A DNA stretch of 64,000 nucleotides, taken from an uncultured delta proteobacterium. Its GTDB lineage: Bacteria > Desulfobacterota > Desulfovibrionia > Desulfovibrionales > Desulfovibrionaceae. The position numbers were made by a program, and so were the translations under genes. The notes beneath the pieces are model-generated. The model was not told the origin of the DNA, ran no database searches, and worked only from the letters and a program-made list of their open reading frames with translations. Location of the stretch: contig CAIMRY010000029.1 in the NCBI GenBank assembly GCA_903843965.1, positions 186,001 to 250,000 on the forward strand, given 5' to 3'. Positions 18,985 to 40,112 of the stretch are shown piece after piece; the stretch's first letter is position 1; every line of letters starts with the position of its first letter.

Positions 18985-20052
18985 CTACACGTGGACCGGG
19001 GCCTCGCGTTCCTCCTCGGCGGCATTGGCCTTGCGGGCCTTGTACATGCTGCCCATGATGATCAGCGCGCCAAAGAGCAGCGCGGCGCACATGATCAGGA
19101 AGCTGGCCTTGTCCATGACGGACACGGTGCCGGGATCAACGTTCATGAGCCCCAGCTCGGCCAGGTACTTGGGCACGGCCAGGGCGCGGCTCACGGCCAC
19201 TATGAGCATGATCGAACCCATGACGAACTTGATCAGGGATTCCTTGACCAGGGTGGTGCCGATGGCGCCGAGCTGCACGCCCAGGAGCGAACCGGCCAGG
19301 ATGATCACAGTGAGGCGGATGTCGACCATGCCGTGCATGGCCCAGTTGATGGTGCCGCCCAGGCCCATGACAAAGGCGATGACCAGCTCCGTGGCCGAGG
19401 CCACCAGGCCGCTGGCGCCGATGATGTAGATCATGCCGGGCACGCCCACGAAGCCGCCCACGGCGATGGTGGCGGCCAGCATGCCGGTGGCGAAGCCGAC
19501 CGGGATGGTGAACCACATGGAGATGCGCACGCCAGCGGTCTTGAAGGTCATCATGGGCCAGATCTCAAGCTTCTGCAGGCGCTGGGCCAGGGTCGCGCCG
19601 GCCTTGGCCTTGCCGCCCTTGTCCGCAGTCATGGCGTCGTAGAACACGTAGCCGCCGACCAGGATCAGCACGGCCACGAAGGACAGGCTCACGTACAGGT
19701 TGGAGCCGGAGGGGCCCCACTTCTCAAGAATCATCCGCTGCAGCTTGATGCCGAACTGCACGCCCACACCGGCGCTGACGGCCATGACCAGGCCGAGCTT
19801 GATGTCCACCTGGCCGTAGCGGAAGCGTTTGATGGCGCCCACAAGCGCCTTGGGGAACTTGTGGCACATATTGCTGGCCACGGCCACGGTGCCGGGCACG
19901 CCCAGGCTCATCATGCCCGGGGTGAGCACAAAGGCCCCGCCCGAACCGATGAACCCGCTGACCAACCCGCCGATGAAGCCGACGATGAACAGGAAGATGA
20001 TCGAAGACGTGGTCAGGTCGATGAATCTGAGGCTGTCGAGTGCGACGTCCAT
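18985..20052 (-). CDS. TSUP (TauE/SafE) family anion permease
   Basis: 355 residues with about eight helices in two homologous halves. The signature glycine-rich loops are FIGGLVSGFIGSGGAFVLTP in the first half and AAAT-like GMLAATIAVGGFVGVPGMIY in the second. A cytoplasmic loop near residues 135-160 is basic (DKGGKAKAGATLAQRLQKLE). The family exports or imports sulfite, sulfonates and related anions; in a sulfate reducer a role with sulfur oxyanions or organic acids is plausible but not shown. It is the last gene of an operon with a small membrane protein and a USP-like protein. Confidence 0.9.
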   Translation of the reverse strand: MDVALDSLRFIDLTTSSIIFLFIVGFIGGLVSGFIGSGGAFVLTPGMMSLGVPGTVAVASNMCHKFPKALVGAIKRFRYGQVDIKLGLVMAVSAGVGVQFGIKLQRMILEKWGPSGSNLYVSLSFVAVLILVGGYVFYDAMTADKGGKAKAGATLAQRLQKLEIWPMMTFKTAGVRISMWFTIPVGFATGMLAATIAVGGFVGVPGMIYIIGASGLVASATELVIAFVMGLGGTINWAMHGMVDIRLTVIILAGSLLGVQLGAIGTTLVKESLIKFVMGSIMLIVAVSRALAVPKYLAELGLMNVDPGTVSVMDKASFLIMCAALLFGALIIMGSMYKARKANAAEEEREAPVHV

Positions 20053-20081: not shown

Positions 20082-20378
20082 CTAGGCGTTCAGGGTGGCG
20101 CGCACTTCGGGGCGCTTGGTCACAGCGGGCTTCAGGGTCTTGGCCGGCTGCTTGGCGTTGATGCCCAGCGCGGTCCACATGTTGGAGGCGAAGCTCCCGT
20201 GCACGTAGGAGACCAGGAACACCGTGGCGATGGGCAGTGCGGCGTAGAATCCGCCGCGCGAGAATATCTCGGTGATGGGGTTGGCGAAATGAAAAATCGC
20301 GCCAAACACGGCGGCGCTGGCCGCGCCAAAACCGATCATCCGCACCATTGCCTGCTTCTTTGTCATCTCATGAGCCAT
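20082..20378 (-). CDS. Small membrane protein preceding the TSUP permease
   Basis: 98 residues with two hydrophobic segments (MIGFGAASAAVFGAIFHFA and GGFYAALPIATVFLVSYVHG) and a basic C-terminal tail. GGAGGATC precedes the ATG. It ends 29 bases before the permease start, so it is probably an accessory subunit or assembly factor of the transporter. No named family recognised. Confidence 0.78.
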   Translation of the reverse strand: MAHEMTKKQAMVRMIGFGAASAAVFGAIFHFANPITEIFSRGGFYAALPIATVFLVSYVHGSFASNMWTALGINAKQPAKTLKPAVTKRPEVRATLNA

Positions 20379-20457: not shown

Positions 20458-20994
20458 TCAGCACTTCAGCGAAAACTCCGGCACGGTCAGCGCCGCGTGC
20501 CGTCTTTCGGCCTCGGGCCTGCGGGTGATGACGAACTCCACCCGCCGCAGCTCCACGCTCACGGCGTTCAAGACCTCGTCGCGGGTACCCTGGCGCAGCA
20601 GGTGCGCGCAGGACACGCCGCGCCGGGCGGCCTCGTCGAGCAGGGGCTGCCCGACCGTGCGCGCGCGCTCCTCAAAATGCGCCCCCGAGCGCGAGCCGTC
20701 GTCCACGCTCAGGAGCACCAGGTCGAACCCCAGGCGTTCGGCCAGGTTCACCGCGTAGACGATCATGGCCTCGGGCACGCCGTCGCCCTCGGCCAGCACC
20801 AGGATCTTGCGGTGCTCGGCGTGGAATTCGCCCATGATCTCGCGGGCGATGGACAGCTCACCGACCTCGGCCATGGACAGGGCCTCGCCGTAGGTCTCCA
20901 TGGCCTCGCGCAGGCCCCCGCGCAGCGAAAGGGAGATGCCCGGCTTGTTGCCCAGGGACAGGCTCTCGCGGACTTTGGTCATGGTCTTGCGCAT
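20458..20994 (-). CDS. Universal-stress-protein-like cytoplasmic protein
   Basis: 178 residues. A polar N-terminal 55 residues precede a Rossmann-like segment (HRKILVLAEGDGVPEAMIVYAVNLAERLGFDLVLLSVDDG), then RGVSCAHLLRQGTRDEVLNAV and VEFVITRRPE. The order fits a UspA fold, but the ATP-binding G-x2-G-x9-G(S/T) loop is not visible, so it is probably a non-ATP form. It is co-directional with the small membrane protein and TSUP permease and likely serves that transport system. Confidence 0.65.
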   Translation of the reverse strand: MRKTMTKVRESLSLGNKPGISLSLRGGLREAMETYGEALSMAEVGELSIAREIMGEFHAEHRKILVLAEGDGVPEAMIVYAVNLAERLGFDLVLLSVDDGSRSGAHFEERARTVGQPLLDEAARRGVSCAHLLRQGTRDEVLNAVSVELRRVEFVITRRPEAERRHAALTVPEFSLKC

Positions 20995-21017: not shown

Positions 21018-21191
21018 TTAGGCCTTGAGGCTCGGACGCGGACGGCTGGTCTTGGCGTCTGGCCGCTTGGCGTCGGCCTTGGGCTGGTCCTTGGCGGCCT
21101 TGAGAACGGACAGGGCCTCCTGCTCCAGGTTGCTTTCGGCAAAGGCGGCGGCGACAAAGGTGGTTTCGATCGTGTCACGCAGAGTGCTCAT
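21018..21191 (-). CDS. Small hypothetical protein, first gene of the TSUP operon
   Basis: 57 residues starting MSTLRDTIETTFVAAAFAE, an amphipathic helix, then a Lys/Pro/Ala-rich basic tail. The start at 21191 has GAGGGGT upstream. It ends 23 bases before the USP-like gene. No family recognised. Confidence 0.6.
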   Translation of the reverse strand: MSTLRDTIETTFVAAAFAESNLEQEALSVLKAAKDQPKADAKRPDAKTSRPRPSLKA

Positions 21192-21321
21192 GGCGACCCC
21201 TCGGGTTGAAGTTTGTGTTGGCCCGGTTCTTTCAATAGCTGTGCCGTGTGCCGGATTTATGAAAACATGTTGGAATAATTGATTATTCGTTTTGCAAGGC
21301 AAGCCAGGGGCAGGATCGGCG

Positions 21322-21338
21322 CGTTGCATGTTGCAACA
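21322..21338. promoter_or_regulatory. Palindromic operator candidate, copy 1
   Basis: CGTTGC-N5-GCAACA is a 17-bp near-perfect inverted repeat in the divergent region between the TSUP operon and the Lon-receiver gene. A second copy with the same spacing lies 90 bp away. Confidence 0.55.
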
Positions 21339-21411
21339 GCAGGACACAGGGCGAAATCGTAACATGCTGAAATTACACATAAGCACCGGTACAACACCTT
21401 TCGAACACCAC

Positions 21412-21428
21412 TGTTGCCAATTGCAACA
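21412..21428. promoter_or_regulatory. Palindromic operator candidate, copy 2
   Basis: TGTTGC-N5-GCAACA is a perfect 17-bp inverted repeat and the stronger member of a pair. Its position about 123 bases before the Lon-receiver start would suit promoter control of either divergent gene. The regulator is unknown. Confidence 0.6.
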
Positions 21429-21550
21429 CACGGTGGTTTGAGACAGGGAATCGTCCGCACAGGGACTTTGACACACGGGGAAATGCGGGCATAATCAGGC
21501 GCAAAGGCCGAGAACATGCGCCGGGCACCGGCGCAGGAGGGGAACGAGGC

Positions 21551-23617
21551 ATGATTTTTTTCAACAAGACCGAGGAAGAACCGGCGCAGACCAGCGGCAA
21601 GGGCCTGGACGAGCTGCGCGGACAGGTCAAGGGCGCGGCCCTGCCCGAGTCCGTGGCGGCCATCGTGGCCAAGGAGCTGAGCCGCCTGGAGAAGACCGAC
21701 CCCTCGGTGGCCGAGTACTCCATCGGCCTCAACTACATCGACTGGTTGAGCAGCCTGCCGTGGACCGCCGCCACCGAGGACTGCCTGGACTTCCCGCGCG
21801 TCGAGCGCATCCTGAGCGACCGGCACTTCGGCCTGGACCACGTGAAGGAGCGCCTGCTGGAGTACCTGGCCGGGCGCACCCTGGCCGCCAGCGCCCCGCC
21901 CCACGTGCTCGTGGTCGACGATGAGGAGATCGCCCGCACGAACCTGGAGCACGTGCTGAAGAAGGAGGGCTACGCCGTGCGCACGGCGGCCAACGGGTTG
22001 GAGGCCCTGGAGCTTGTGCGCGTCTGGAGCTTCGACCTCATCGTCACCGACCTCAAGATGGACAAGATGGATGGCATGACGCTTTTGGCCGAGGCCGGGC
22101 GGCTTTCCCCCTCCACGCAGATCATCATCGTCACCGGCTACGCCACGGTGAACTCCGCAGTGGAGGCCATGCGCACCGGCGCGGCCCACTACCTGACCAA
22201 GCCCATCAGCCTGGACAGCCTGCGCTCGACCGTGCGTGAGCTGCTGGGCCAGAGGAAGAAGCTGGCCCCGGCGCGCGGCCCGGTGCTCTGCTTCACCGGG
22301 CCTCCGGGCACGGGCAAGACCTCCATCGGCATGGCCATAGCCGAGGCCCTGGGCCGCAAGTTCCACCGCATGTCCATGGCCGGCATGCGCGACGAGGCCG
22401 AGTTGCGCGGACACCGCCGCACGTACGTGGGGGCCATGCCGGGCAAGATCATCCAGGCCATCCGGCGGCTTGGGGTGAACAACCCGGTGCTCATGCTCGA
22501 CGAGATCGACAAGGTCGGCCAGGACTTCCGGGGCGACCCCGGCGCGGTGTTCCTGGAGATCCTCGACCCCGAGCAGAACCGCTCCTTCATGGACCTCTAC
22601 GTGGACGTGCCCTTTGACCTGTCCCAGGTCATGTTCATCGCCACGGCCAACGACCTCTCGCGCCTGGACGCGCCCTTGCAGGACCGCCTGGAGGTGGTGC
22701 ACTTCCCCGGCTACACCGAGCCGGAAAAGGTCCAGATCGCGCTCAAGCACATGGTGCCGCGCCAGTGCGCGGAGCACGGCCTGACCCACCCCTACCCGAC
22801 CTTCGAGTCCGAGGCCGTGCGCACCATCATCAGCGACTACACGCGCGAGGCCGGCGTGCGCAACCTGGACCGCGAGATCGGCGGGGTGTGCCGCAAGCTG
22901 GCGCGCCTGGCCATGCGACCGGATTCAGAGAGGCTGACGGGCGGCAAGACCGACGCCAATACAGGCGGCCAGGCCCAGGGCAGCTACCCCACCACCATCG
23001 ACGCCGCCCTGGTGACCAGCCTGCTGGGCCCGCGCCGCCACACCCACGAGTCGGCCCGGCCCGTGTCGCGTCCGGGCGTGGTCAACGGCCTGGTCTGGAG
23101 CGACTCCGGCGGCGAGATCGTGCTGGTGGAGGCGGCCAAGATGCGCGGCACAGGCCAGCTCCTGCTCACCGGCAACCTTGGCGCCGTGCTCAAGGAATCC
23201 GCCCAGACCGCGCTCTCCTTCATCCGCGGCAACGCCGAGAAATACGGCCTGGACCCGGACTTCTTCACCCAGCAGGACCTGCACATCCACATCCCGGCCG
23301 GGGCCATCCCCAAAGACGGGCCCTCGGCAGGGGTGACCATCCTCATGGCCCTGCTCTCGCTGTTGACCGGACGCCCGGCCAAGGCAGGCGTGGCGCTGAC
23401 CGGCGAGATGTCGCTGGGCGGGGTGCTTTTGCCCGTGGCGGGCATCCGCGAGAAGATATTGGCCGCGCTGCGCGGCGGGGTGCACACCGTGTGCCTGCCC
23501 ATGGGCAACCGGCCCGAGGCCGAGGCGCTCGAAGCCGACATCCGCGCCAACATCAAGATCGTGCTGGCCACCGAGGCCGACGAGGTGGTGGACGTGGTGC
23601 TGGAGGCCAAGAAGTAG
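21551..23617 (+). CDS. Lon-family ATP-dependent protease with inserted receiver domain
   Basis: 688 residues. Residues 15-112 match the helical region just before the Lon AAA+ module (YIDWLSSLPW, FGLDHVKERLLEYLAG). A complete receiver domain is inserted at about 116-232: VVDDEE pocket, phosphoacceptor Asp167 in TDLKMDKMDG, IVTGYA, and YLTKPIS. The AAA+ module follows (Walker A GPPGTGKTS, Walker B LMLDEIDK), then the protease domain with dyad Ser592 (KDGPSAG) and Lys635, spaced 43 residues as in classical Lon. The N-terminal substrate-binding LAN domain is missing. Phosphorylation would be placed right at the ATPase entrance, suggesting phospho-gated proteolysis. A GAGG-containing purine-rich stretch precedes ATG 21551. 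Confidence 0.93.
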   Translation: MIFFNKTEEEPAQTSGKGLDELRGQVKGAALPESVAAIVAKELSRLEKTDPSVAEYSIGLNYIDWLSSLPWTAATEDCLDFPRVERILSDRHFGLDHVKERLLEYLAGRTLAASAPPHVLVVDDEEIARTNLEHVLKKEGYAVRTAANGLEALELVRVWSFDLIVTDLKMDKMDGMTLLAEAGRLSPSTQIIIVTGYATVNSAVEAMRTGAAHYLTKPISLDSLRSTVRELLGQRKKLAPARGPVLCFTGPPGTGKTSIGMAIAEALGRKFHRMSMAGMRDEAELRGHRRTYVGAMPGKIIQAIRRLGVNNPVLMLDEIDKVGQDFRGDPGAVFLEILDPEQNRSFMDLYVDVPFDLSQVMFIATANDLSRLDAPLQDRLEVVHFPGYTEPEKVQIALKHMVPRQCAEHGLTHPYPTFESEAVRTIISDYTREAGVRNLDREIGGVCRKLARLAMRPDSERLTGGKTDANTGGQAQGSYPTTIDAALVTSLLGPRRHTHESARPVSRPGVVNGLVWSDSGGEIVLVEAAKMRGTGQLLLTGNLGAVLKESAQTALSFIRGNAEKYGLDPDFFTQQDLHIHIPAGAIPKDGPSAGVTILMALLSLLTGRPAKAGVALTGEMSLGGVLLPVAGIREKILAALRGGVHTVCLPMGNRPEAEALEADIRANIKIVLATEADEVVDVVLEAKK

Positions 23618-24016: not shown

Positions 24017-25927
24017 TTAGGCCGTCCTGGGTATCCAGATCCTGAAGGTCGAGCCCTGGCCCGGCTCGCTGACCGCGCCGATGCGGCCGCCGTGCTGGTC
24101 CACGGCCTTTTTGGCGATGAACAGCCCAAGCCCGGTCCCGCGCGAGCCCTTGGTGGAGAAGAACACCGAGAACAGGCGCGAGAGCGTGTCCGGCTGCATG
24201 CCGATGCCGTTGTCCGCAATCTCGAAAAACACGCCGTTGGCGTCGGGCCGGGCGCGGAACACCACCTCATGGGTCTCCTTGGTCTGGTCCTCCAGGCAGG
24301 CGTCCACGGCGTTCTCCAAAATGTTCACCATGGCGGCGGAGAGCACCACGCTGTCCACGGCGAAGCTGCCCAGGTCGGGCGCGATCTCGCACACAAAGGC
24401 CACGCCCAGCTGCTCGGCCTTGGGGGCCACGGCCTCGGCCACCTGGCTGGCCAGGGTGCAGGCGTCCGTGGTGCGCAGCTGCAGCTCGCGCTTCTTGGCG
24501 TAGAACAAGATGTCGAGCACCATGCCCTTGATGCGCCCGATGAGCTCCGTAACCTTGCCCCAGCCCGCCTGGACCAGCTGCTGGTCGCCGGTGCGGAAGC
24601 CCGTGTTGACCTTGTACACGCCGCCGTCCAGCGCCGTGAGCAGGCCCTTGATGCCGTGGGACAGCGAGGCGATGAGCATGCCGAGCGAGGCCAGGTGGTC
24701 CTGCATGCGCGAAAGCTCGGTGATGTCCGTGGCCATCTCCATGACGGCCTCGATCTCGCCCGCGTCGTTCTTGATGGGTGCGGTCCAGACAACCACGTTC
24801 ACCTGCTGGCCGTCCTTGCCGCGCACGGTGAGTTCGCTCTGGTGCGGTTGGCCGTCCTCAAAGCTCTTGAGGGTGGGGCAGCCGAAGCAGGGCCGCCCGG
24901 TGCCGCAGCAGGTCTCGTAGCACAGCCCGCCGGTGCTGTTCCCGAACTCGGCCCGGAAGCTGCGGTTGACGGCCTGGATGCGCAGGTGCCGGTCCAGCAC
25001 GGAAATGAAGCACGGGGCCTCGTCGAACAGCTGCTGGTAGCGCTGGCGCGTGGCGCGCAGTTCGTCCTGCAGGCGCTGCACCTCGCCCGCGTCCACGGCC
25101 AGCTCCAGCACCAGGTCGATCTCGCCGTCCACGCCACGGATGGGCGCGGTATGCACCATGACGGCGGACAGGGTCTCGTCGGTCCCGAAGATGCCCTCGT
25201 GGCTCTTCTGGCCCAGGCCGGTGGAGAGCGTGCGGCCCACGGGGCTTCCGGCCTCGGTCCCGGCTGCCCCGGCGTAGATTTCGTAGCCCGGCTGGCCCAG
25301 GCGGTCGCCCAGGCGGTCGCGGTAGAGCTGGTTCACGGAGACGATGCGCTGGTAGCCGTCCTGGATGGACACCAGGCAGGGCAGGCCGTTGAAGATGCCG
25401 ACTCCACCTTCCACATCGCCTGTCACGCCGCCGATGAGCTGGGTCAGGCCCTCCACCGCAGCCTTGACCGCGCACTGGCGCTCCACGTCCATCAGGTGCT
25501 CGGCCTGCTGGTTGACCATCACTTCGAGGTTTTCGGTGTAGTTCTTCAGGCGCGCGCGCATGGTGATCTTGGCGCTGGCCCGCTTGAGCGCGATCTCGAG
25601 CACGTCGGGCCCGACGGGCTTGGCGATGAAGTCGCAGGCGTCGAGCTTGAGCCCGGCCACGGCCATTTCCAGGTCGCCGTGGCCCGTGACCAGGATGACC
25701 TCGGTGTCCGGGCTGAGTTCCTTGATGCGCCGCAACAGCTCCAGACCGTCCATGCCGGGCATGCGGATGTCGGTCAGGACCACCGGGGGATTGACGCGAG
25801 CAAAGACAGCCAGGGCCTCGTCGCCGCTGGCCGCCTGATGCACGGTGTAGCCCATGTCGGCCAATGTGAAGCCGACGACCTTGCGGATCCCGGCTTCATC
25901 ATCAACAATAAGCACATCCATCGCCAT
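24017..25927 (-). CDS. Receiver-PAS-histidine kinase with Cys-rich PAS
   Basis: 636 residues. An N-terminal receiver (VDDEAGIRK, Asp in VLTDIRMPGMDG, FIAKPVG) is followed by a coiled linker, two PAS-like regions (about 165-280 and 300-420), a kinase core with SLSHGIKGLLTALDGG and an HATPase (NILENAVDAC, DNGIGM, GTGLGLFIAKK). The second PAS holds a Cys cluster CYETCCGTGRPCFGCP that could bind a metal or sense redox; a related cluster occurs in the kinase at 29681-32053. The phospho-His context (LSHGIKG) marks the same kinase subfamily as 28530-29684. It is last in the minus-strand cluster below the tmc genes, and the same neighbour set is known beside tmc in Desulfovibrio vulgaris. Confidence 0.88.
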   Translation of the reverse strand: MAMDVLIVDDEAGIRKVVGFTLADMGYTVHQAASGDEALAVFARVNPPVVLTDIRMPGMDGLELLRRIKELSPDTEVILVTGHGDLEMAVAGLKLDACDFIAKPVGPDVLEIALKRASAKITMRARLKNYTENLEVMVNQQAEHLMDVERQCAVKAAVEGLTQLIGGVTGDVEGGVGIFNGLPCLVSIQDGYQRIVSVNQLYRDRLGDRLGQPGYEIYAGAAGTEAGSPVGRTLSTGLGQKSHEGIFGTDETLSAVMVHTAPIRGVDGEIDLVLELAVDAGEVQRLQDELRATRQRYQQLFDEAPCFISVLDRHLRIQAVNRSFRAEFGNSTGGLCYETCCGTGRPCFGCPTLKSFEDGQPHQSELTVRGKDGQQVNVVVWTAPIKNDAGEIEAVMEMATDITELSRMQDHLASLGMLIASLSHGIKGLLTALDGGVYKVNTGFRTGDQQLVQAGWGKVTELIGRIKGMVLDILFYAKKRELQLRTTDACTLASQVAEAVAPKAEQLGVAFVCEIAPDLGSFAVDSVVLSAAMVNILENAVDACLEDQTKETHEVVFRARPDANGVFFEIADNGIGMQPDTLSRLFSVFFSTKGSRGTGLGLFIAKKAVDQHGGRIGAVSEPGQGSTFRIWIPRTA

Positions 25928-26038
25928 GCGGCCCGCCCCCGGCACTGTCCGCACCCTACCCGGCGGGACTACGCAGTTGTCTGGCGTGAATCCTACTGAA
26001 ACGCCCTCTGGAAGGGGAAAGCGCTTTGCGGCGGCTGT

Positions 26039-26398
26039 TTATGGCGCGCCGATGGCCTTTTCCACGATGCTCAACACCTGGGCCGGCTCAAAGGGCTTGT
26101 TCACCGTGGCCACGGCCTTGCGGATGGCCAAGTGGATGCCTGCCAGGCCGCTGATGACCACCACGGGCAAATCCTTAAACTCCGGCTTCTGGCTGAACTT
26201 GCGGTAGAAGCGCGGGCCCCATTCGTCGGGCATCTCCAGGTCCAGGGTCAGGAGGTCCGGGTGCTCGCGCTCAATGACCTCCATGGCGCTCTCTCCGCCC
26301 GGGGCCGAGCAGGTGGCGTAGCCGCGCTCCTTGAAGATGGACACGAGGTATTCCACGATATCAGGGTCATCGTCCACCACCATGATCTTCTTCGCCAT
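26039..26398 (-). CDS. Single-domain response regulator
   Basis: 119 residues, receiver only: VVDDDPDIVEYL, phosphoacceptor in LLTLDLEMPDEWG, VVISGLAGIH, and VNKPFEP. The sequence after the Asp (EWGPRFYRKFSQKPEFKDLP) is unusual for receivers and is closely shared with the receiver domain of the Rrf2 fusion at 36201-37157, which marks the two as paralogues. It sits between another receiver (26400) and the receiver-kinase (24017) and is a likely phosphorelay component. Confidence 0.88.
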   Translation of the reverse strand: MAKKIMVVDDDPDIVEYLVSIFKERGYATCSAPGGESAMEVIEREHPDLLTLDLEMPDEWGPRFYRKFSQKPEFKDLPVVVISGLAGIHLAIRKAVATVNKPFEPAQVLSIVEKAIGAP

Positions 26399-26399
26399 C

Positions 26400-26891
26400 T
26401 CACGCCTCCTTAGTGTTCCGCGTCAAAGCGCCCTGGGCTCTCCCCTGGGCCGCCAAAATCCGTTCCGCCTCCCGAAGCAGAGCCTCCGGGCTGGGGGGTT
26501 TCTCCACGTAGCCGTCCACATCGGGCAAGAGCCCCCCGTCCTTGCCGGGCATTCCCGTGCGCACCAGCGACAGCGAGTGCCGGAAGGCCTCCCCGGCGAT
26601 GGCCGAAACCACGAGCACCCCGGCCCGCCGCAGCTCCTCATCGGCCTTGAGCCGCTGGAAGAGCCGGATGCCGCCCTGGTTCGGCATCATCAAATCCAGG
26701 CTGACAAGGTCGGGCTTCCACTCCTTGGCCTTGCGGAAGCCCTCCTCGCCATCGCGGGCCGTCGCGGTTGCATACCCCGCAGTCTCAAAAACCGCCGCGA
26801 TGTAAATCCGCAGGTGCATCTCGTCGTCCACCACGAGCACCCGCCCCCGGCCCGGAGACCGGTCCGGATTCCGGCCCGCCCCCCCGGTCAT
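26400..26891 (-). CDS. Single-domain response regulator with extended loop
   Basis: 163 residues. A Gly/Arg/Pro-rich N-terminal 16 residues precede a receiver with VVDDEMHLRIY, Asp in LVSLDLMMPNQGG, VVSAIAGE and VEKPPSP. Between the fourth strand and the Lys a longer loop (RHSLSLVRTGMPGKDGGLLPDVDG) is inserted. There is no output domain. Its stop is one base from the next receiver, so they are co-translated; the universal stress protein lies four bases upstream of its start. Confidence 0.85.
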   Translation of the reverse strand: MTGGAGRNPDRSPGRGRVLVVDDEMHLRIYIAAVFETAGYATATARDGEEGFRKAKEWKPDLVSLDLMMPNQGGIRLFQRLKADEELRRAGVLVVSAIAGEAFRHSLSLVRTGMPGKDGGLLPDVDGYVEKPPSPEALLREAERILAAQGRAQGALTRNTKEA

Positions 26892-26895
26892 GGGC

Positions 26896-27846
26896 CTACT
26901 CCCCGCTGCGCGGCCCCCCGTAAGGGCTCACGTCCACCTTGTCGGGGTGGTTCACGCTCAAAACCGGGCAGGCCGAGCGCAGCACAACCTGTTCGATGGT
27001 GCTGCCGAGCATGGCCTGTTCCGGGTCCACGTCCTTGGTGTGGTGGGCCATGACGATCAGGTCGGCCTTGGCCTCGCGCGCGTACTTCAGCACCTCCACG
27101 TGCGGGGTGCCCTCGCGCAAGGCCAGGATGTAGTTGTCGAAATCGCCCATGTTGGCCACGTACTTATCCTGCACCTTCTTTTCAGATGCGGCAAGCTGCT
27201 GCTCAATGTAGGACTGGGTGGCGGTGCTGGCCTGGCCCTCGGGGCCGATGTCCACGCAGTGGAACACGTGCAGCTTGCAGCCGATCTCCTTGGCCACATT
27301 GCGGGCGAACTGGAAGGCGTAGTCCGAGGGCTTGCTGAAGTCCGTGGCGACCACGATGTTGGCGAAATACGACCAGCAGGTGACGCAGGGGCGGCTGACG
27401 ATGAGGACCGGGCAGCGGGCGCTCTTGGCCACCTTCTGCATTGTCGACCCGGCGATGGCGCGGTGGCGCATGGCGCCTACGTCTTCCTCGCGGGTGTGCG
27501 CGCCCATGATGATCAGGCTGGCGTCGTCCTTTCTGGCCTTGCGCAAAATCTCGGTGTGGGGCTCGCCGGTGGCGGTCTCGTACACGCAGTCCGGGTGGTC
27601 CTTGCCCAGCTTCTCGTAGTACTGGGCCATTTCCTCCTTGACCAGACTCACCAGGTTCTCGTCCACGTTCTCGGCATCGCCGGTGCGCACGTCGCGGTAG
27701 GTCAGGCTGAACCCCCGGCCCGGCAGGCCAAAGACGTGGTACACGTAAAGCTTCGAGTGGTTCTTGCGAGAGAGCTCAAAGGCGACGCGCGCGGCGTCGT
27801 CGCAGGTGGAAGAAGCAGACGTGGCGAACAGTATCTTCTCGAACAT
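26896..27846 (-). CDS. Tandem universal stress protein
   Basis: 316 residues with two UspA domains: residues 1-150 (FEKILFATSASSTCDDAARVA ... LIIMGAHTREEDVGAMRHRAIAGSTMQKVAKSARCPVLIV) and about 160-316 (ANIVVATDFSKPSDYAFQFARNVA ... LIVMAHHTKDVDPEQAMLGSTIEQVVLRSACPVLSV). Both G-(S/T) nucleotide loops are present, so ATP binding is likely. GGAGG precedes ATG 27846. It is part of the gene set conserved beside tmc and may tune redox signalling. Confidence 0.9.
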   Translation of the reverse strand: MFEKILFATSASSTCDDAARVAFELSRKNHSKLYVYHVFGLPGRGFSLTYRDVRTGDAENVDENLVSLVKEEMAQYYEKLGKDHPDCVYETATGEPHTEILRKARKDDASLIIMGAHTREEDVGAMRHRAIAGSTMQKVAKSARCPVLIVSRPCVTCWSYFANIVVATDFSKPSDYAFQFARNVAKEIGCKLHVFHCVDIGPEGQASTATQSYIEQQLAASEKKVQDKYVANMGDFDNYILALREGTPHVEVLKYAREAKADLIVMAHHTKDVDPEQAMLGSTIEQVVLRSACPVLSVNHPDKVDVSPYGGPRSGE

Positions 27847-27848
27847 AA

Positions 27849-28388
27849 CTACCTCCTTAGTGCGCATTCCACAGGGGCCCCGTGGAACGCGAGTTGCCAA
27901 CCGATGCCTTCCTGAAATTCGAACAGGTTGCAGACCGTCTGAAAGCGGAACTCGTCCATCCTGTCGCCAAAAATCACGTGCTTGAGCGGGCCCAGGACCA
28001 CGGGCAGGTCAAGCAGGGTCTCCACCGGGTAGGGCTTGATCTCGATGTCCTCTCCGTCCGTGCCGACCCCGCGCAGGGCGTGGTAGATATCCAGCCGGGG
28101 CGGGGCCGGGTGGCCGATGATGGCCACGGTCTTGGACAGCTCCAGCCGGGCGATGCCCGCCGGGATGCAGCCGGATTCGGGCCAGCCCGCCAGGCCCCTG
28201 GACAGGTCCTGGGCAAAGGGGCTCAACCGCAAAAACAGCTCATTGAGGGAGAGCATCTTGATGAAGCTGCGCAGGGTGTACCCTTCCGCCAGCACCACGC
28301 GGGCTCCAAGCACGCACAACAGATCCGTCTCTTGCGTCCCGTCATGCCGGAGCAGTAACCCCTCCGAGTTTAGTATGATTTCGTCCAT
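27849..28388 (-). CDS. Conserved hypothetical protein of the tmc-linked regulatory set
   Basis: 179 residues from ATG 28388 (MDEIILNSEGLLLRHD); ATGs at 28397 and 28412 are possible. No signal peptide or helices. It contains CVLGARVVLAEGYTLRSFI and ELSKTVAIIGHPAPPRLDIYHAL, with no catalytic motif that I recognise. Its stop lies two bases from the universal stress protein start. Position and strand match the hypothetical protein found between the USP and tmcA in D. vulgaris, so it is likely a real part of the system. Confidence 0.72.
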   Translation of the reverse strand: MDEIILNSEGLLLRHDGTQETDLLCVLGARVVLAEGYTLRSFIKMLSLNELFLRLSPFAQDLSRGLAGWPESGCIPAGIARLELSKTVAIIGHPAPPRLDIYHALRGVGTDGEDIEIKPYPVETLLDLPVVLGPLKHVIFGDRMDEFRFQTVCNLFEFQEGIGWQLAFHGAPVECALRR

Positions 28389-28529
28389 ATTGCACATTCC
28401 GCGTGTGTACAATTGATTTGACGCAATAATCTTAAAGCGATTTCACCGTATTTCATAATAATGTTCTCGTCAATGTTGAAAAGAATATCTCATCGTAAAA
28501 AACTCAATTTTCAAATCGTTCAATTCGCC
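28389..28529 (-). promoter_or_regulatory. AT-rich gap, possible internal promoter
   Basis: An unusually AT-rich 141 bases separates the receiver-kinase from the hypothetical/USP group. On the minus strand it holds TTGACG within ACATTGACGAGAACATT, followed by AT-rich -10-like sequence without a clear hexamer. It may let the downstream group be transcribed apart from tmc. Confidence 0.3.
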
Positions 28530-29684
28530 CTACCCTGGGATGATTATATTGAACGTTGTCCCCGAGCCCTGTTGGCTTGCAACTGCAATGCTGCCTCCGT
28601 GCTCCTCCACGATTTTTTTGGTGGTCATCAGCCCCAGTCCAGAGCCGCCCTCGCCCTTGGTGCTGAAAAAGACCGTGAACAGCCGGGATTTGGCCTCCTC
28701 GTCCAGGCCGCAACCATTGTCCGCAACGCTGTAGAGCACGCCCCCGCCTGGCCGGGGCGCGACCGTGAGCGCCACCCGCCCGCCCGGGGTGTCCGGCCCG
28801 AACCCGGCGGCCTGGCAGGCGTCCAGCGCGTTGCCCACCAGGTTCATCAGGCAGCGGTGCAGGGCCTCGGCGTCGAGCCGGACCAACGCCATGTCCGCCG
28901 GGGCCGCCAGGGTCAGCTCCGCGCCTGCGGCCTTGGCCTTGTGCTGCAGCAGCTCGACCACCTCCCGCGCGGGCTGGGCCGGGTCGCAGGGCACGGGCTT
29001 GAGCGCCTCGGGCCGGGCGTAGCGCAGCATCTCCAGCGACAGGTTCTTGATCTTCTCCACATTGGCCTGGAGCATCTCCCAGCCCTGCTCCAGGTAGGCC
29101 CGGCGGTCCAGCTCCAGACCCTTGCCGAAGAGGAAGATGCTGCCCTCCAGCCCGCTGGCCAGGTTCTTGATGGCGTGGGACAGCCCGGCCACGGTCTGGC
29201 CCACTGCGGCCAGGCGCTCTGCGGCCAGAAGCTCGCGGGTCTTCTGCTCCACCAGGCGCTCCAGCTCCTGGGTGTGCTCGCGGATGGCCCGGCGCATGTC
29301 CAGGCGCTCGCTCGCGCGCTTGAGCGCGATGTCCAGGGCATCGTCGCTGATGGGCTTGGTCACGAAATCCGTGGCGTCGAGCTTGATGCCCTGGATGGCC
29401 AGGTCGATGTCGCCGTGGCCGGTGATGAGGATGACCTCGGTGTCGTGGCCGCCGGGGCTTTGGGCTGCGGCCTTGAGGGCCTTCAACAGCTCCAGTCCGT
29501 CCATGCCGGGCATCTTGATGTCCGTGATGACGATGGGCGGCTTGAGCTCGTGGAACAGGGCCAGGGCCTTTTCCGCGTTCTCCGCCGTGGACACGGTGAA
29601 GCCCCGGTCGGCCAGGGTCAGGCCCAGCACCTTGCGGATGCCGTCCTCGTCGTCCACCAGGAGGATGCGCTGCGTCTCGCTCAT
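28530..29684 (-). CDS. Receiver-histidine kinase hybrid
   Basis: 384 residues. The N-terminal receiver (LLVDDEDGIRKVLG, Asp in VITDIKMPGMDG, FVTKPIS) connects by a coiled helix (ERLVEQKTRELLAAERLAA) to a kinase core with phospho-His in GLSHAIKNLASGLEGS and an HATPase (NLVGNALDAC, DNGCGLDEEAK, GSGLGLMTTKK). There is no membrane segment or PAS. The start overlaps the c-heme kinase stop by four bases (ATGA at 29681-29684), so it is translated with it and probably receives its phosphate. It ends before a 141-base AT-rich gap. Confidence 0.9.
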   Translation of the reverse strand: MSETQRILLVDDEDGIRKVLGLTLADRGFTVSTAENAEKALALFHELKPPIVITDIKMPGMDGLELLKALKAAAQSPGGHDTEVILITGHGDIDLAIQGIKLDATDFVTKPISDDALDIALKRASERLDMRRAIREHTQELERLVEQKTRELLAAERLAAVGQTVAGLSHAIKNLASGLEGSIFLFGKGLELDRRAYLEQGWEMLQANVEKIKNLSLEMLRYARPEALKPVPCDPAQPAREVVELLQHKAKAAGAELTLAAPADMALVRLDAEALHRCLMNLVGNALDACQAAGFGPDTPGGRVALTVAPRPGGGVLYSVADNGCGLDEEAKSRLFTVFFSTKGEGGSGLGLMTTKKIVEEHGGSIAVASQQGSGTTFNIIIPG

Positions 29685-32053
29685 GGGCGGCCTCCGGCTC
29701 CGGACGGGGTGCCGGACGGGGAGCCGGACGGTGAGCTGGCCTGGGAACCGGGCTGGTCGCCATTCTGGTCGCTTACGCATTCTATGGGCAGGGTGATGAT
29801 GAAGCGCGTGCCTTCGCCCGGGGTGGAGCAGGCCTTGATGTCGCCGCCGCAGTCCTTGATGATGCCGTAGCTGATGGACAGCCCCAGCCCCGTGCCCTTG
29901 CCCACCTTCTTGGTGGTGAAGAAGGGCTCGAAGATCTTTTCCAGCACGCCAGTGGGAATGCCGCAGCCCGTGTCGGCGATGACCACGGTCACGAACTGGC
30001 CGCTTGTGCTGGCGGAAAGTTCGATGCGCTTGGGCCCGGCGGGCTTGTCGCCCTTTTCGGCGGCAACCGCCCACTTTTCCTCAATGGCGTCGCGGGCGTT
30101 GATGAGCATGTTGATGAAGACCTGCTCCAGGCGTCCGGCGTCGGCCCGGACCAAGGGCAGGGTCGGCTCCACGCGCAGGGATACCTCGATCTCGCGCAGC
30201 TTGAGCTGCTGGCTGAAGATGTCCAGGCTGCGGGCCAGGATGGCCCCGGCGTCCACGGGCTCCAGCTTCATCTCCGGCTTGCGGCCGAATTCACGCAGGT
30301 GGTTGATGATGCGCGAGGCGCGGTCCACGTGGGCGTCGATCTCCTTGGCCATCTCGGCCAAAATGTCCGGGTTGAGCGGCTCCTTGCGGGTGATCTTGCG
30401 CACGATGAAGCTGGCTGCGGTCTTGATCACCGACAGGGGCTGGTTCAACTCATGGGCCATGCCTGTGGCCATTTCGCCCAGGGTGGCCATCTTCGAGGCC
30501 TGGATGAGCTGCTGCTCGGTCTCCAGGCGCTTGGTCATGTCGCTGGTGGTCACCAGCAGCACCTTCTGCCCGGAGAACTCCGAGGGGGACACGCGCACCG
30601 TGACGAACAGCCTGCGCCCGTCCTTGGTCATGTGCACCGAGCGGTCGTGCAGGTCGGTCTGGGCCAGGCGCTTCTTGAAGCGGTCGCGGTCCTCCACGGG
30701 GTACAGGTCCTGGAACGAGCGGCCCACGATCTCGAAAGGCTCATACCCGTAGACCACGGGCACGGACTCGTTGCAGTCCAGGATGCGCAGGGACTCGGCG
30801 TCGAGCACGAACACGGGGTTGGGGATGTTGCGGAAGATGGCCTGGTACTTGTGCTCGCTCTTCTCCAGCTCCTCTTCGAGCTGCTTGCGGCTGGTGATGT
30901 CCAGGCACATCTCCATGGCCGAGACGATCTCGCCCTCGCTGTTGGTGATGGGCGCGGTGGTCACCATCCAGTGCCGCACGGTGCCGTCGGCGTCAAAGCC
31001 GGTCTCCTCGCTGCAATGGCTCTTGCCGGTCTTGAAGGTCAGCTCCACCGGGCAGTTGGGGCACTTTTCGCTGCGTCCCTTGTAGGCATGGTAGCAAAAG
31101 TCGCCGGGGCGCGGGCGGAACTTCTCCCGGAACTCCTGGTTGTAGCGCAGCAGGCGGAAATTCTTGTCCTGCACGGTGATGATGCAGGGCACCTGCGAGA
31201 ACAGCGACTGGTACTCGTCGCGCTGGCGGTTCAGTTCGATCTGCTTCTCGCTGATGCTCTTGCCCATGCGCTCGATGGCCGTGACCAGGGTGCCCATTTC
31301 GTCGCGCTGGGAGATGTCGATGCCGGCGCACTGGCCCCCCTCGGCGATGCGCTTGGCCCCGCGGATGAGCTTGCGGATGGGCCGGATGACGAAGCGCATC
31401 ATGAACAGGAAGATGGACAGGCCGAGCGCCAGCAGAACGATGGCCGTGAAGCCGATGATGCGCGTCTTGGAGGAGCTTATCTCGCGGTCCGCAGACTCCA
31501 GGGAGAGCACCACGTCGATGGCGCCCAGAACCTTCTTGTCCTGCGGGTGGAAGTGGCAGTTCTCGAAGCAGCCGGGTTCGTTGTAGATGGGGCTTATTAT
31601 GCCGAGCGTACGCTGGCCGTTTGGGCCCTCAAAGATGCGCGTGCGCGCCTCCAGCGGAACGTCGGCCGCCGGGGGGTTGGACTGGTGGCAGACGTAGCAG
31701 GCCTGGCTCTTGATGTCCGTGACCGAGTCCACCTCCCGCGGGATGTTGGAGAACTTGATCTGGCCTTCCTTGTTGTACACGCGAATGGCCAGGATGCCCT
31801 CCTGGCTGCCGACGTTGGAGATGATCTGGTTCAAGTCCTCGCGCGAGTTGAGCATCATGGCGTAGCGGGTGCCGAGCTTGATGGTGGTGCCCAGGCGGTC
31901 GGCCTCGGCCACCACGTACGTCATGAGCACGTCCTCCTGGTGGCTGATGGCCAGGTAGGACAGCGCGGACACGCACACCACGAGAGACGCCCCCGCAGCC
32001 ACGATGAGCTTGGAGATGAGGCTTCCCTGGATGGCGTTCCACAGCTTGCGCAT
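29681..32053 (-). CDS. Membrane sensor histidine kinase with periplasmic c-type heme motif
   Basis: 790 residues. TM1 is about 13-35; a periplasmic region of about 160 residues follows; TM2 is about 199-221; then HAMP, two PAS domains (about 280-400, 405-520), a HisKA with MAHELNQPLSVIK and an HATPase ([31 protein letters not shown]). The periplasmic part contains a perfect c-heme motif C119-YV-C122-H123 and a second Cys/His cluster C162FENC166H167, so it should bind heme c and sense redox state, O2, NO or another ligand. The first PAS carries CYHAYKGRSEKCPNCP. It is encoded 98 bases after tmcA, so it probably monitors periplasmic electron flow tied to Tmc. Confidence 0.92.
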   Translation of the reverse strand: MRKLWNAIQGSLISKLIVAAGASLVVCVSALSYLAISHQEDVLMTYVVAEADRLGTTIKLGTRYAMMLNSREDLNQIISNVGSQEGILAIRVYNKEGQIKFSNIPREVDSVTDIKSQACYVCHQSNPPAADVPLEARTRIFEGPNGQRTLGIISPIYNEPGCFENCHFHPQDKKVLGAIDVVLSLESADREISSSKTRIIGFTAIVLLALGLSIFLFMMRFVIRPIRKLIRGAKRIAEGGQCAGIDISQRDEMGTLVTAIERMGKSISEKQIELNRQRDEYQSLFSQVPCIITVQDKNFRLLRYNQEFREKFRPRPGDFCYHAYKGRSEKCPNCPVELTFKTGKSHCSEETGFDADGTVRHWMVTTAPITNSEGEIVSAMEMCLDITSRKQLEEELEKSEHKYQAIFRNIPNPVFVLDAESLRILDCNESVPVVYGYEPFEIVGRSFQDLYPVEDRDRFKKRLAQTDLHDRSVHMTKDGRRLFVTVRVSPSEFSGQKVLLVTTSDMTKRLETEQQLIQASKMATLGEMATGMAHELNQPLSVIKTAASFIVRKITRKEPLNPDILAEMAKEIDAHVDRASRIINHLREFGRKPEMKLEPVDAGAILARSLDIFSQQLKLREIEVSLRVEPTLPLVRADAGRLEQVFINMLINARDAIEEKWAVAAEKGDKPAGPKRIELSASTSGQFVTVVIADTGCGIPTGVLEKIFEPFFTTKKVGKGTGLGLSISYGIIKDCGGDIKACSTPGEGTRFIITLPIECVSDQNGDQPGSQASSPSGSPSGTPSGAGGRP

Positions 32054-32151
32054 GGTTCACTCCCCGGGCCGTCGCCGTCGGATGGTCCTGCCTGCCGGTC
32101 CGCCGGGGGAGCCCGCTTGGGGCCCCCCTGACGGATGCTCAGCAGACGTTT

Positions 32152-32541
32152 TCAGCGTACGTGGCACTGCCCGCAGGCCAGCGGGCCCTTGCCCTTGGCC
32201 CGGTGGCAGGCGATGCACTGCTTGTGGTAGGCGCGCTGCAGGCTGGTGGCCTTGCCTGCGGGCTTCACCTTGTGGCAGTCGGAACAGGGCGTGCCCTCGG
32301 TGGAGGCGGTCTTGTCCTGCTTGCCGTCGGCCCCGCCGTGGTGGCAAACCACGCACTCTTCGAGCTTGGCCTTTTCGTTGTGCTTGTCGTGGTTGAACAC
32401 GGCCGGGGGCCGGGTCAGCTTGCCAAAGGCCGCAGGGGCCAGTTTGGTGATGGTGTCCTGGGCCATGACAGTCTGGACCGCCAGAAAGGCCGACGTGCAG
32501 ACCAGCGCGGCCAGCATGAGAAGGGGCAGTATGCGCTTCAT
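32152..32541 (-). CDS. tmcA: Type II tetraheme cytochrome c3, Tmc subunit A
   Basis: 129 residues. A Sec signal peptide (MKRILPLLMLAALVCTSAFL, cleaved near VMAQ) is followed by four CxxCH heme sites (CVVCH, CSDCH, CIACH, CGQCH) and extra His ligands (FNHDKHNEK, YHKQC). Four hemes and this size fit the acidic type II cytochrome c3, which takes electrons from periplasmic hydrogenase or formate dehydrogenase via type I c3 and passes them to the Tmc membrane complex. Start has a GGAGG-like site. It is the fourth gene of the tmcDCBA operon. Confidence 0.95.
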   Translation of the reverse strand: MKRILPLLMLAALVCTSAFLAVQTVMAQDTITKLAPAAFGKLTRPPAVFNHDKHNEKAKLEECVVCHHGGADGKQDKTASTEGTPCSDCHKVKPAGKATSLQRAYHKQCIACHRAKGKGPLACGQCHVR

Positions 32542-32550
32542 GGCGTCCTC

Positions 32551-33870
32551 CTAGACCTCAGGCTTTTCCATGCATTCATAGATGATGTCGCTTAAGAACT
32601 TGAGCTCCATGCCCAGCTTGTGGTGGTGGATGATGTCGTGCAGGCCGCCGTGGCAGTTGTGGCACGGGGTGATGACGGTCTTGACCCCGGTGGCCTTCAA
32701 CTGCTCGGCCTTGACGAGGTTTCCGTCCACGCGCACGTTCTTGAACGGCGGACCGCAGTTGATGACGCCGCCGCCAGCCGCGCAGCAGTAGTTGTGCTCG
32801 CGGTTGGGGTGCATCTCGATGATGTCGCCGTCAACCAGGAAGCGGGTCACCTCGCGCAGCTTCTCTTGCAGTCCGCGCCCGCGCACGATGTTGCAGGGGT
32901 CCTGGATGGTCACCGGCCCGGGGAATTTCTTGGCCAGCTTGATCTTGCCTTCCTGAATGAGCTCCCAGTAGAACTCCACGGCGTGGATGACCGGCACCGG
33001 GTGCCAGCGCCAGCCCAGCCAGCGGTTGCCCACGTCGTACACGGAGCGGAAGGCGTGGCCGCACTCGCCCATGACGATGCGCTTGACCTTGAGCTTCTGG
33101 GCGCTCTCGAAGTGCTGGCGCTTGAGCCGCCCCATCATCTCGAAGTCGCCGGAGAACATGCACATGTCGGAGTTGTCCCAGCCGGTCTGGGCGGGCATGG
33201 TCCAGTCCACCCCGGCCATGTGCATGATGGCCGCGGCCTGGTAGATGAGCTGGGTGCGGAACTTGGGCTCGGGCGCGATGACCGAGTAGTAGATGTCCGC
33301 GCCTTCCTTGTCGAGCGGGATGCGCAGGCCGGGGAACTCTTCCCGGGCCTCGTCCTCCTGCCACATGAGCGAGTCGGTCCACTCGTCGTCCTTGACCCAC
33401 ATCTGGTTGAAGGTGGACGCATGGCTGTGCGCGGTGTCCTGCATGTACTGCGGGGTCACGCCCAGCTTGTGGCAGATGCGCCGGACCGTGCTCATGATGT
33501 AGGCTGTGTCGATGCCGATGGGGCAGAGATGCACGCAGCGGCGGCAGAGATTGCATTCGGTGTAGGCCAGCTGCGCCATGCCGTACACGAAGTCCGGGTC
33601 GACCCGGCCCTTCTTGTCCAGCAGCACGCTCATGGTCTGGTGGACCTTGCCAGCCGGAGTGTAGCTCGGGTCGCCGGGGTGGGAGCCCGCGAAGTGGCAG
33701 GCCTCGGCGCACATGCCGCAACGCATGCAGGTCTCGGCATAGGTTTTGAGCCGTGCGCCGGTTTCACCTTTGAGCACGGCGTTGACGACCTTCTCGATCT
33801 TCTCCGGAGTCAGCTGCGAAACCCCGCGCCGGAGCCCCACGTCCTCAATGAGTCTTTCCTGGATGCCCAT
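32551..33870 (-). CDS. tmcB: TmcB, HdrD-like iron-sulfur subunit of the Tmc complex
   Basis: 439 residues. The N-terminal region has two ferredoxin clusters (CMRCGMCAEACHF; CNLCRRCVHLCPIG). Two CCG-type heterodisulfide-reductase motifs follow: the first ends at MGECGHAF with an upstream Cys, and the second is CCAAGGGVINCG with a later CHNCHGG. The protein is soluble and sits on the cytoplasmic side of the membrane subunit, where it transfers electrons to thiol/disulfide carriers or DsrC-like partners (known for the family; partner inferred). Only ten bases separate it from tmcA. Confidence 0.94.
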   Translation of the reverse strand: MGIQERLIEDVGLRRGVSQLTPEKIEKVVNAVLKGETGARLKTYAETCMRCGMCAEACHFAGSHPGDPSYTPAGKVHQTMSVLLDKKGRVDPDFVYGMAQLAYTECNLCRRCVHLCPIGIDTAYIMSTVRRICHKLGVTPQYMQDTAHSHASTFNQMWVKDDEWTDSLMWQEDEAREEFPGLRIPLDKEGADIYYSVIAPEPKFRTQLIYQAAAIMHMAGVDWTMPAQTGWDNSDMCMFSGDFEMMGRLKRQHFESAQKLKVKRIVMGECGHAFRSVYDVGNRWLGWRWHPVPVIHAVEFYWELIQEGKIKLAKKFPGPVTIQDPCNIVRGRGLQEKLREVTRFLVDGDIIEMHPNREHNYCCAAGGGVINCGPPFKNVRVDGNLVKAEQLKATGVKTVITPCHNCHGGLHDIIHHHKLGMELKFLSDIIYECMEKPEV

Positions 33871-33891
33871 GTGTGGTTCCTCCTTGGGGCT

Positions 33892-34551: not shown

Positions 34552-34572
34552 GGTCGTCCTCCTTACCCGCGC

Positions 34573-37157: not shown

Positions 37158-37269
37158 ACCGCAGGCCTGCGGGGCGCCAAGCCATCCCGACTGTTGACGG
37201 TGGTTTCTGGTTGGGCATATGCATGGGGGAACCACGGGCCGCCCGGCCCATGCCCCAAGAGGAGTCCCC

Positions 37270-38750
<1,481 letters not shown>

Positions 38751-38754
<4 letters not shown>

Positions 38755-40112
38755 ACGCAGGCCGCGTGCTCGTGGTCGACGACGAGGCCATCGCCCGGGA
38801 GAACCTCGTGCACGCCCTGGTGCGCGCGGGCTACGAGGCCGAGAACGCGGCCGACTCCCGCTCCGCCCTGGCCGAGCTGGACCGCGCCCGCTACGACCTG
38901 CTTTTGACTGACCTGCGCCTGGGCGAGCAGAGCGAGCTGGACGGCATCGGGCTCATGGAGCGCGCGCGCAAGCTGCACCCCGGCCTGGAGGTGGTGGTCA
39001 TGACCGGCTACGCCACCGTGCCCGGGGCCGTGGCCGCCATGAACCGGGGGGCATACTCATACCTGGCCAAGCCGCTCAATCTCGACGAGGTGCGCGCGCT
39101 CACGGCCAAGGCCGTGGAGTCAAGCCAGCTGCGGCGCGAGGTGCTGGACCTGCGCCAGCGGCTGAAGGACCGCGACGCCCCGCCCATGCTGGTGGGCAAA
39201 AGCGCGGCCATGGCCGCGCTGCTCAAGACCATCGGCCAGGTGGCGCCCACCTCCTCCACCGTGCTGCTCCTGGGCGAAACCGGCACCGGCAAGGAGCTGG
39301 CCGCCCGGGCCATCCACCACGCCAGCCAGCGGGCGGACAAGCGCTTTCTGGGCGTGAACTGCGGGGCCTTCAGCGAGGAGCTTCTGGCCAGCGAACTCTT
39401 CGGGCACGAAAAGGGCGCGTACACCGGGGCGGGTGAGCGCAAGGCCGGACTGTTCGAGGCGGCCAGCGGCGGCACCCTGTTCCTGGACGAGGTGGGCGAG
39501 ATGACGCCGTCCATGCAGGTGCGCCTCTTGCGCGTGCTGCAGGAGCGCAAGATCCTGCGCGTGGGCGGCACGGCGGACATTCCGGTGGACGTGCGCGTCA
39601 TCGCCGCCACCAACAAGGACCTGGCCGTGGAGACCGAGACCGGGGCCTTCCGCCTGGACCTGTACTACCGGCTGAACGTCATCACCCTGCGCCTGCCCGC
39701 CCTGGCCGAACGGCGGGAGGACATCCCGCTTCTGGCCCGGCACTTCCTGCTCAAGTACTCCGAGCTGCTGGGCCGCGAGGTGCGCGAGCTCTCGCCCGGC
39801 GTGCTGGACATCCTGGCCAGCTACGCCTTTCCCGGCAACATCCGCGAGCTGGAGAACCTGATGGAGCGCGCCGTGGTCCTGGCCGAGGGCGACACCGTGG
39901 AGCCCCGGCACCTGCCCCCGGACCTGCAGCTGGACCAGCCGCGCCTCAAGACCTCGCGCCAGGGCGGCCTGCCCACCCTGGAGGAGAACGAGCGCCAGCA
40001 CATCCTCTGGGTGCTGGAGCACACCGGCAACAACAAGTCCCGCGCCGCCGAGATCCTCGGCATCGACCGCGCCTCGCTCTGGCGCAAGCTCAAGCGCGCC
40101 GGGCTGGGGTAG
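38751..40112 (+). CDS. Sigma-54-dependent response regulator, NtrC family
   Basis: 453 residues: receiver (VVDDEAIARENL, Asp in LLLTDLRLGEQSELDG, YLAKPLN), AAA+ with Walker A GETGTGKE, sigma-54 contact loop GAYTGA, Walker B GGTLFLDEVGE and Arg finger region, and a Fis-type helix-turn-helix (NKSRAAEILGIDRASLWRKLKR). It activates sigma-54 promoters when phosphorylated by the preceding kinase. The receiver has a longer post-Asp loop than usual. No sigma-54 promoter was found next to it, so its targets are elsewhere. Confidence 0.93.

Follow-up and report, generated by a model that had tools for sequence, protein, structure and literature searches.

Two-component systems are known chiefly as controllers of transcription, and the known cases of control over proteolysis involve separate adaptors. 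CpdR is such a receiver adaptor, influencing proteolysis by ClpXP; RssB is likewise a receiver protein that influences AAA+ proteolysis as a ClpXP adaptor. Whereas both act on ClpXP as separate proteins, one gene in the window (the whole stretch of 64,000 nucleotides analysed here) encodes a receiver that is an insert within a Lon protease. A protease that was itself the response regulator would be the shortest path from signal to degradation. The protein is probably a Desulfocurvus-type counterpart of DVU3303 of Desulfovibrio vulgaris: a paralogue of LonA that lacks the LAN domain, carries a receiver at the entrance to its AAA+ module, and would form the proteolytic arm of a three-component system.

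A receiver inserted into a LonA protease

The fusion protein aligns to Bacillus subtilis Lon (3m6a) in two pieces: residues 21-113 correspond to chain residues 12-104, and residues 240-685 to chain residues 105-531. Residues 114-239, comprising the receiver and short linkers, are thus an exact insertion between adjacent Lon residues. Pfam matches are Response_reg (119-228, E 6e-29), AAA (246-383), Lon_lid (408-456), and Lon_C (483-685). The NCBIfam model TIGR00763 (“endopeptidase La”) scores 663.2 bits against a cut-off of 608.05, which places the protein among LonA enzymes by score. The Walker A and B motifs and the Ser-Lys dyad typical of LonA are present, as is the full set of receiver residues (the acidic pair, the phospho-acceptor Asp, Thr/Ser, and Lys). 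No LAN domain is found among the Pfam matches at E<=0.001, and the alignment to Lon starts only at residue 21.

In an AlphaFold2 model of the monomer (34 sequences, mean pLDDT 81.3, pTM 0.70), the receiver forms five strand-helix units (118-232), preceded by helix 96-114 and followed by strand 245-249, which itself precedes Walker A. As modelled, the insertion is at the very edge of the AAA+ module. The model aligns to the LonA structure 7ypk with Z 31.0 and rmsd 2.6 over 515 residues. The three-helix bundle, AAA+ module, lid, and Ser-Lys protease are common to the fusion and the LonA proteases of family S16 (the Lon proteins of B. subtilis, E. coli, and M. taiwanensis), from which the fusion differs in lacking LAN, in carrying the receiver insert, and in standing on its own side of the tree of catalytic cores.

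The initial annotation had described a complete receiver (Asp167, Thr, Lys) between the last N-terminal Lon helix and Walker A, intact AAA+ and Ser592-Lys635 protease parts, and a missing LAN domain. Each description stands: the receiver is present and conserved, and the two enzymatic parts are recovered by Pfam and TIGR00763 with their catalytic residues kept. The likely cognate kinase, the sigma54 regulator, the divergent operon, and the palindromes, all of them inside the window, do not figure in that annotation. Coordinates of the fusion, its domains, and the associated genes and sites are collected in Table 1.

Table 1. Features of the fusion locus and its candidate partners, in window coordinates
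Feature	Position	Strand	Basis or remark
TauE/SafE-family transporter, divergent operon	18985..20052	-	Pfam
98-aa small protein, divergent operon	20082..20378	-	no Pfam match at E<=1
Usp-like protein, 178 aa, divergent operon	20458..20994	-	E 0.0025, below Pfam's cut-off
Palindrome GTTGC-N5-GCAAC, first copy	21323..21337	.	perfect match, intergenic
Palindrome GTTGC-N5-GCAAC, second copy, 90 bp on	21413..21427	.	perfect match, intergenic
Lon-receiver fusion gene (DVU3303 type), 688 aa	21551..23617	+	ORF, ATG start; Pfam, NCBIfam, structure alignment
LonA three-helix bundle and helix entering AAA+, residues 21-113	21611..21889	+	aligned to 3m6a 12-104; model helices 17-114
Receiver domain, residues 119-228; Asp123, Asp124, Asp167 (phospho-acceptor), Thr195, Lys217	21905..22234	+	Pfam PF00072; conservation
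AAA+ module and Lon lid, residues 246-456; Walker A Lys256, Walker B Asp317/Glu318	22286..22918	+	Pfam PF00004, PF22667
Lon protease domain, residues 483-685; Ser592-Lys635 dyad	22997..23605	+	Pfam PF05362
Likely cognate histidine kinase (HAMP, HisKA, HATPase)	37219..38754	+	orthologue of fusion-adjacent kinase in relatives
Partner sigma54 response regulator (DVU3305 type by gene set)	38751..40112	+	receiver is the genome's best match to the Lon receiver

Distribution, conservation, and origin of the fusion

The search of Lon homologues by taxonomy that had been proposed for this gene finds the receiver-Lon fusion in Desulfobacterota and in the phylum of Nitrospira. Of 59 genomes of relatives, the home genome among them, 28 have a receiver-bearing homologue; the figures are 84 of 199 for a draw from the class (E<=1e-150) and 24 of 198 for one from the phylum of a Nitrospira genome. 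The draw from the home phylum yields 42 of 345 (our own count, of rows beginning before residue 30); another 20 genomes passed the threshold only through an ordinary LonA or a receiver-less piece and are excluded from the 42. At E<=1e-150 the fusion is found in none of 369 genomes from the class of a Thiogranum genome (gammaproteobacteria-type) and in none of 399 from the order of a Janthinobacterium genome, two draws that carried no positive control and in which two to three candidates were scored per genome. There are at least four named carriers: Desulfocurvus sp., an uncultured delta proteobacterium, a Desulfovibrionales bacterium (partial, at a contig end), and Desulfobacter vibrioformis.

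The 94 distinct fusions show no substitution at Asp123, Asp124, Asp167, Lys217, Walker A Lys256, Ser592, or Lys635; at position 195, 93 carry Thr and one carries Ser, and at Walker B position 318, 93 carry Glu and one carries Asp. With both the phosphorylation and the catalytic residues retained, the receiver half and the protease half are each under selection. The alignment of relatives covers 26 of the 28 fusion genomes, omitting G008 (cut by a contig end) and G003 (a split copy). In G003 the copy (L046:2895-4825) is missing about 45 residues around the receiver start, perhaps through an assembly fault.

The relation of the fusions to ordinary LonA was assessed with an unrooted tree of catalytic cores from which the receiver was left out (132 rows, 125 of them different). 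All 48 fusions lie on one side of a branch with SH-aLRT 97, and the 84 ordinary LonA rows lie on the other. The home genome has four Lon_C matches, the fusion included, and the two of its ordinary LonA copies that were placed in the tree fall among ordinary LonA, apart from the fusion. The fusions probably share one origin, which fits this unrooted tree without being proved by it.

The DVU3303 precedent and the partner genes

The initial annotation knew of no standard Lon class with this domain order. That statement is not supported by the literature: a D. vulgaris response regulator with a Lon protease, DVU3303, was described in 2011, and mutant phenotypes have been printed since (Rajeev et al. 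2011, PMC3333781; PMC10102598). In the 2011 paper, DVU3303, the kinase DVU3304, and the sigma54 regulator DVU3305 make up a “three-component system”, and phosphorylation-dependent proteolysis by DVU3303 is already suggested. DVU3305 is reported there to control its own operon and DVU3302-3298 (targets listed in PMC4641369), and DVU3303-3305 and/or DVU3298-3302 are upregulated at high pH, in heat shock, and in stationary phase. The paper also reports orthologues of DVU3305 from other Desulfovibrio and from Thermodesulfovibrio, Thioalkalivibrio, and Dechloromonas, and most of these genomes have the Lon regulator as well (PMC3333781). The fusion type is thus already in print in outline, its presence beyond Desulfovibrio included, and the idea that the fusion is new to science is ruled out. 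The literature searched yielded no enzymology of the Lon-receiver class; a response-regulator census naming the architecture may exist. Within that literature, the present analysis adds the insertion point, the residue conservation across 94 proteins, the supported split from ordinary LonA, the three large genome-draw counts, the window's partner pair, the co-loss within the genus, and the tandem sites with their background frequency.

The DVU3303 system and the window have in common a Lon response regulator, a kinase, a sigma54 regulator, and neighbouring genes of membrane, hypothetical, and UspA type. In the window, receiver and LonA core form one protein, and a kinase and sigma54 regulator as well as TauE-family and Usp-like genes (the latter below Pfam's cut-off) are linked to it. 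The likeness is one of architecture and gene set. In contrast to DVU3303, which shares one operon with its kinase and regulator, the window fusion is separated from its pair, which lies 13.6 kb downstream, beyond a block of electron-transfer and signalling genes.

In relatives, a histidine kinase and a sigma54 regulator flank the fusion, and the divergent operon lies on its other side. By fixed criteria, an adjacent kinase and sigma54-regulator pair was found in the fetched flanks of 52 of 66 fusion loci (23 of 26 loci from genus to order, 12 of 20 from the Nitrospira phylum, and 17 of 20 from other Desulfobacterota). At six of the 14 loci where the fetched flank shows no pair, the contig ends less than 3 kb away; the other eight have no such break (L221, L223, L224, L225, L231, L238, L243, and L247); since the window's own pair lies 13.6 kb off, a pair can lie beyond the fetched flank at such loci. 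A TauE-family transporter gene stands on the opposite strand at 44 of the 66. By the same criteria, neither a kinase-regulator pair nor a TauE gene turns up at any of 76 ordinary LonA loci, of which 48 span at least 15 kb. The contrast is overstated, because this control was drawn across many phyla and near relatives pass identity thresholds set on window proteins more easily.

Gene content in relatives follows the same pattern. Of the 28 genomes that carry the fusion, 19 have a TauE orthologue (E<=1e-60), against none of the 31 that lack it. The same-genus genomes G001 and G009 (99% complete) have neither the fusion nor the transporter nor an orthologue of the partner regulator, which they match at best with 386-388 bits; the 11 genus members that have the regulator score 784-968 bits. 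Two less complete genomes carry the fusion at a contig end: G006 (84%) has no partner match at E<=1e-110, and the best partner match in G008 (86%) scores 455 bits.

Receiver similarity points to a kinase shared by the Lon protein and the partner regulator. Compared with 48 other receiver-like places in its own genome, the Lon receiver matches that of the partner regulator best, by a small lead (88.7 bits; runner-up 84.8). Across loci, Lon receivers and those of their own partners have a mean identity of 50% (56 pairs, four later dropped), versus 34% for other receivers of the neighbourhood (n=33); the four dropped matches, at 41-43% (L224, L225, L233, and L237), were removed because the receiver tree puts them in another group. 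At nine positions that in other systems touch the kinase, mapped from Spo0F-Spo0B, Lon and partner receivers agree at 58% versus 47% elsewhere (52 pairs), and Lon and other nearby receivers at 21% versus 33% elsewhere (37 pairs), in both cases uncorrected for kinship among loci. In the receiver tree, Lon and partner receivers group together, with the forks between the two open. On this evidence, both receivers may be served by one kinase.

The two perfect palindromes lie within a divergent intergenic region of about 360 bp, with 0.09 expected in the window. The home genome (3.56 Mb) has six GTTGC-N5-GCAAC places, versus two for a reversed control pattern. From -400 to +200 of the start of the fusion frame, 27 of 62 loci hold an exact palindrome and 48 hold one with at most one mismatch; the remainder of those regions (930 kb) has one exact copy and 50 within one mismatch. 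Where a locus has two or more copies, a pair is spaced 86-91 bp in 28 of 39 cases (own count). In form the palindrome resembles the activator sites of NtrC-type regulators, and the two copies are candidate sites of the partner sigma54 regulator. The 2011 paper reports that the DVU3305 binding site is conserved in cases of association with the Lon regulator (PMC3333781). A search for a sigma54 -24/-12 promoter in the window's intergenic region found none that was convincing (best site score 8), and across 63 loci sites scoring at least 10 show a weak excess, with four on the Lon strand (1.0 expected) and four on the other (0.7 expected).

Several smaller features surround these genes. Between the Usp-like gene and the palindromes lies a small frame (21018-21476, -), about 57 residues from its likely start, with matches in most but not all same-genus loci (46-83% identity) and at about 45% in L047 and L251. 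At L241:9551-10384, the Usp-like and the 98-aa proteins of the divergent operon both find their match in a single 277-residue frame. The block between fusion and kinase (24017-35832, -) encodes two receiver-kinases, two small receivers, a double Usp protein, and a sensor kinase, together with cytochrome c7-like, iron-sulfur, and nitrate-reductase-gamma-like membrane proteins; it resembles the Tmc electron-transfer locus of Desulfovibrio. Directly upstream of the kinase and regulator pair, 36201-37157 (+) encodes an Rrf2-type DNA-binding domain (residues 1-133) joined to a receiver of DVU0259/DivK type (201-316).

How the receiver may act on the protease

Two-component input to the protease, proposed when the gene was first annotated, is the best reading: the receiver and LonA core are intact, the fusion is conserved, and the window holds a likely cognate kinase and a second receiver protein. 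Sequence supplies the anatomy, conservation, gene set, and sites, and the work of others on D. vulgaris supplies the partner regulon and the common mutant phenotype; the shared kinase, the use of the sites by the partner, gating, its direction, and the substrates are what we infer. The membrane kinase would phosphorylate two receivers, that of the sigma54 regulator and that of the Lon protein at Asp167. The regulator would use the GTTGC-N5-GCAAC palindromes that separate the Lon gene from the Usp-like/TauE operon, and phosphorylation of Asp167 would switch proteolysis, somewhat more probably on than off.

The switch could work through altered hexamer assembly or through substrate access at the face of the three-helix bundle. 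Lon activation, according to a published account, may involve a pentamer gaining a sixth protomer with substrate, and this pentamer-to-hexamer step is one route by which receivers beside the bundle could act; on another, after RssB, phosphorylation would raise substrate affinity. When MtaLonA loses its N-domain, it is reported to keep its ATPase and peptidase activities at the wild-type level and casein degradation close to that level, but to fail on a heat-unfolded protein. As a natural counterpart of that truncated enzyme, the fusion would be expected to have an active but damage-blind core. It would then pass over generally damaged proteins in favour of a single substrate or a small chosen set, and its lack of LAN would make it a natural example of a Lon devoted to particular substrates.

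A wider proposal, for which the chances are evenly poised, is that a kinase directly switches an AAA+ protease through a receiver inserted at the edge of the ATPase, so running a transcription arm and a proteolysis arm, in an old Desulfobacterota/Nitrospirota class of probably one origin. With kinase, partner, and candidate sites all conserved, the suggestion made in 2011 lends itself to direct testing.

Another possible, though rather unlikely, role for the receiver is to pick substrates: once phosphorylated, it would bind a substrate or adaptor for a constitutively active core, in the manner of RssB or CpdR but in cis. This role overlaps in part with gating of the protease, and the probabilities given to the readings do not sum to one. 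It would suit a protein from which LAN, the usual substrate-binding domain, is absent, and a LonA core that, in the MtaLonA work, stays active on casein when LAN-less; phosphorylation of RssB is likewise reported to bring the apparent Km of sigmaS turnover down from about 150 nM to 58 nM. However, the modelled receiver sits tightly between a helix and the first AAA+ strand and not at a free terminus, a placement that suits conformational coupling as well or better.

Gating by the kinase must also be weighed against feedback, in which the Lon protein would degrade the partner regulator or kinase, or its receiver would soak up phosphate, so shutting the response off. The agreement of Lon and partner receivers at kinase-contact positions is consistent with feedback, as is the reported control by the partner regulator of the D. 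vulgaris operon that holds its own and the Lon genes (PMC3333781 and PMC4641369). The mutant phenotypes make feedback improbable. According to the fitness study (PMC10102598), DVU3303-3305 are detrimental in 6.25 mM chlorate and every pairwise cofitness exceeds 0.9, so that loss of the Lon gene matches, rather than opposes, loss of kinase or regulator, unless insertions in this first gene are polar; the cofitness of DVU3303 could come partly from polarity on the two downstream genes. With that caveat, the D. vulgaris Lon protein appears to work with its kinase and regulator and not against them. The target transporter DVU3299 is important in chlorate in the same study. A trio that is harmful where its transporter is useful does not fit simple activation of the transporter by the trio, which may instead restrain it under chlorate or act via another target.

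Very improbable is a receiver that serves as a structural or dimerising spacer and for which phosphorylation is no longer relevant: some receivers do function unphosphorylated, as is generally known, but here Asp123, Asp124, Asp167, and Lys217 are kept in all 94 fusions and position 195 is always Thr or Ser, across Desulfobacterota and the Nitrospira phylum. A chance fusion, a sequencing error, or two separate genes, the last considered in the initial annotation, has a negligible probability and is ruled out by full-length, single-frame homologues of the same length (28/59, 84/199, and 24/198 genomes) and by the 48 of 48 cores beyond one supported branch; one relative, G003, has a split copy.

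One further relative, G019, departs from the common pattern. Its fusion (L061:7776-9971, +) has altered residues at Walker B, sensor 1, sensor 2, and the pore loop, whereas the receiver residues and the Ser-Lys dyad are kept; it is possibly an ATPase-dead form of the protein.
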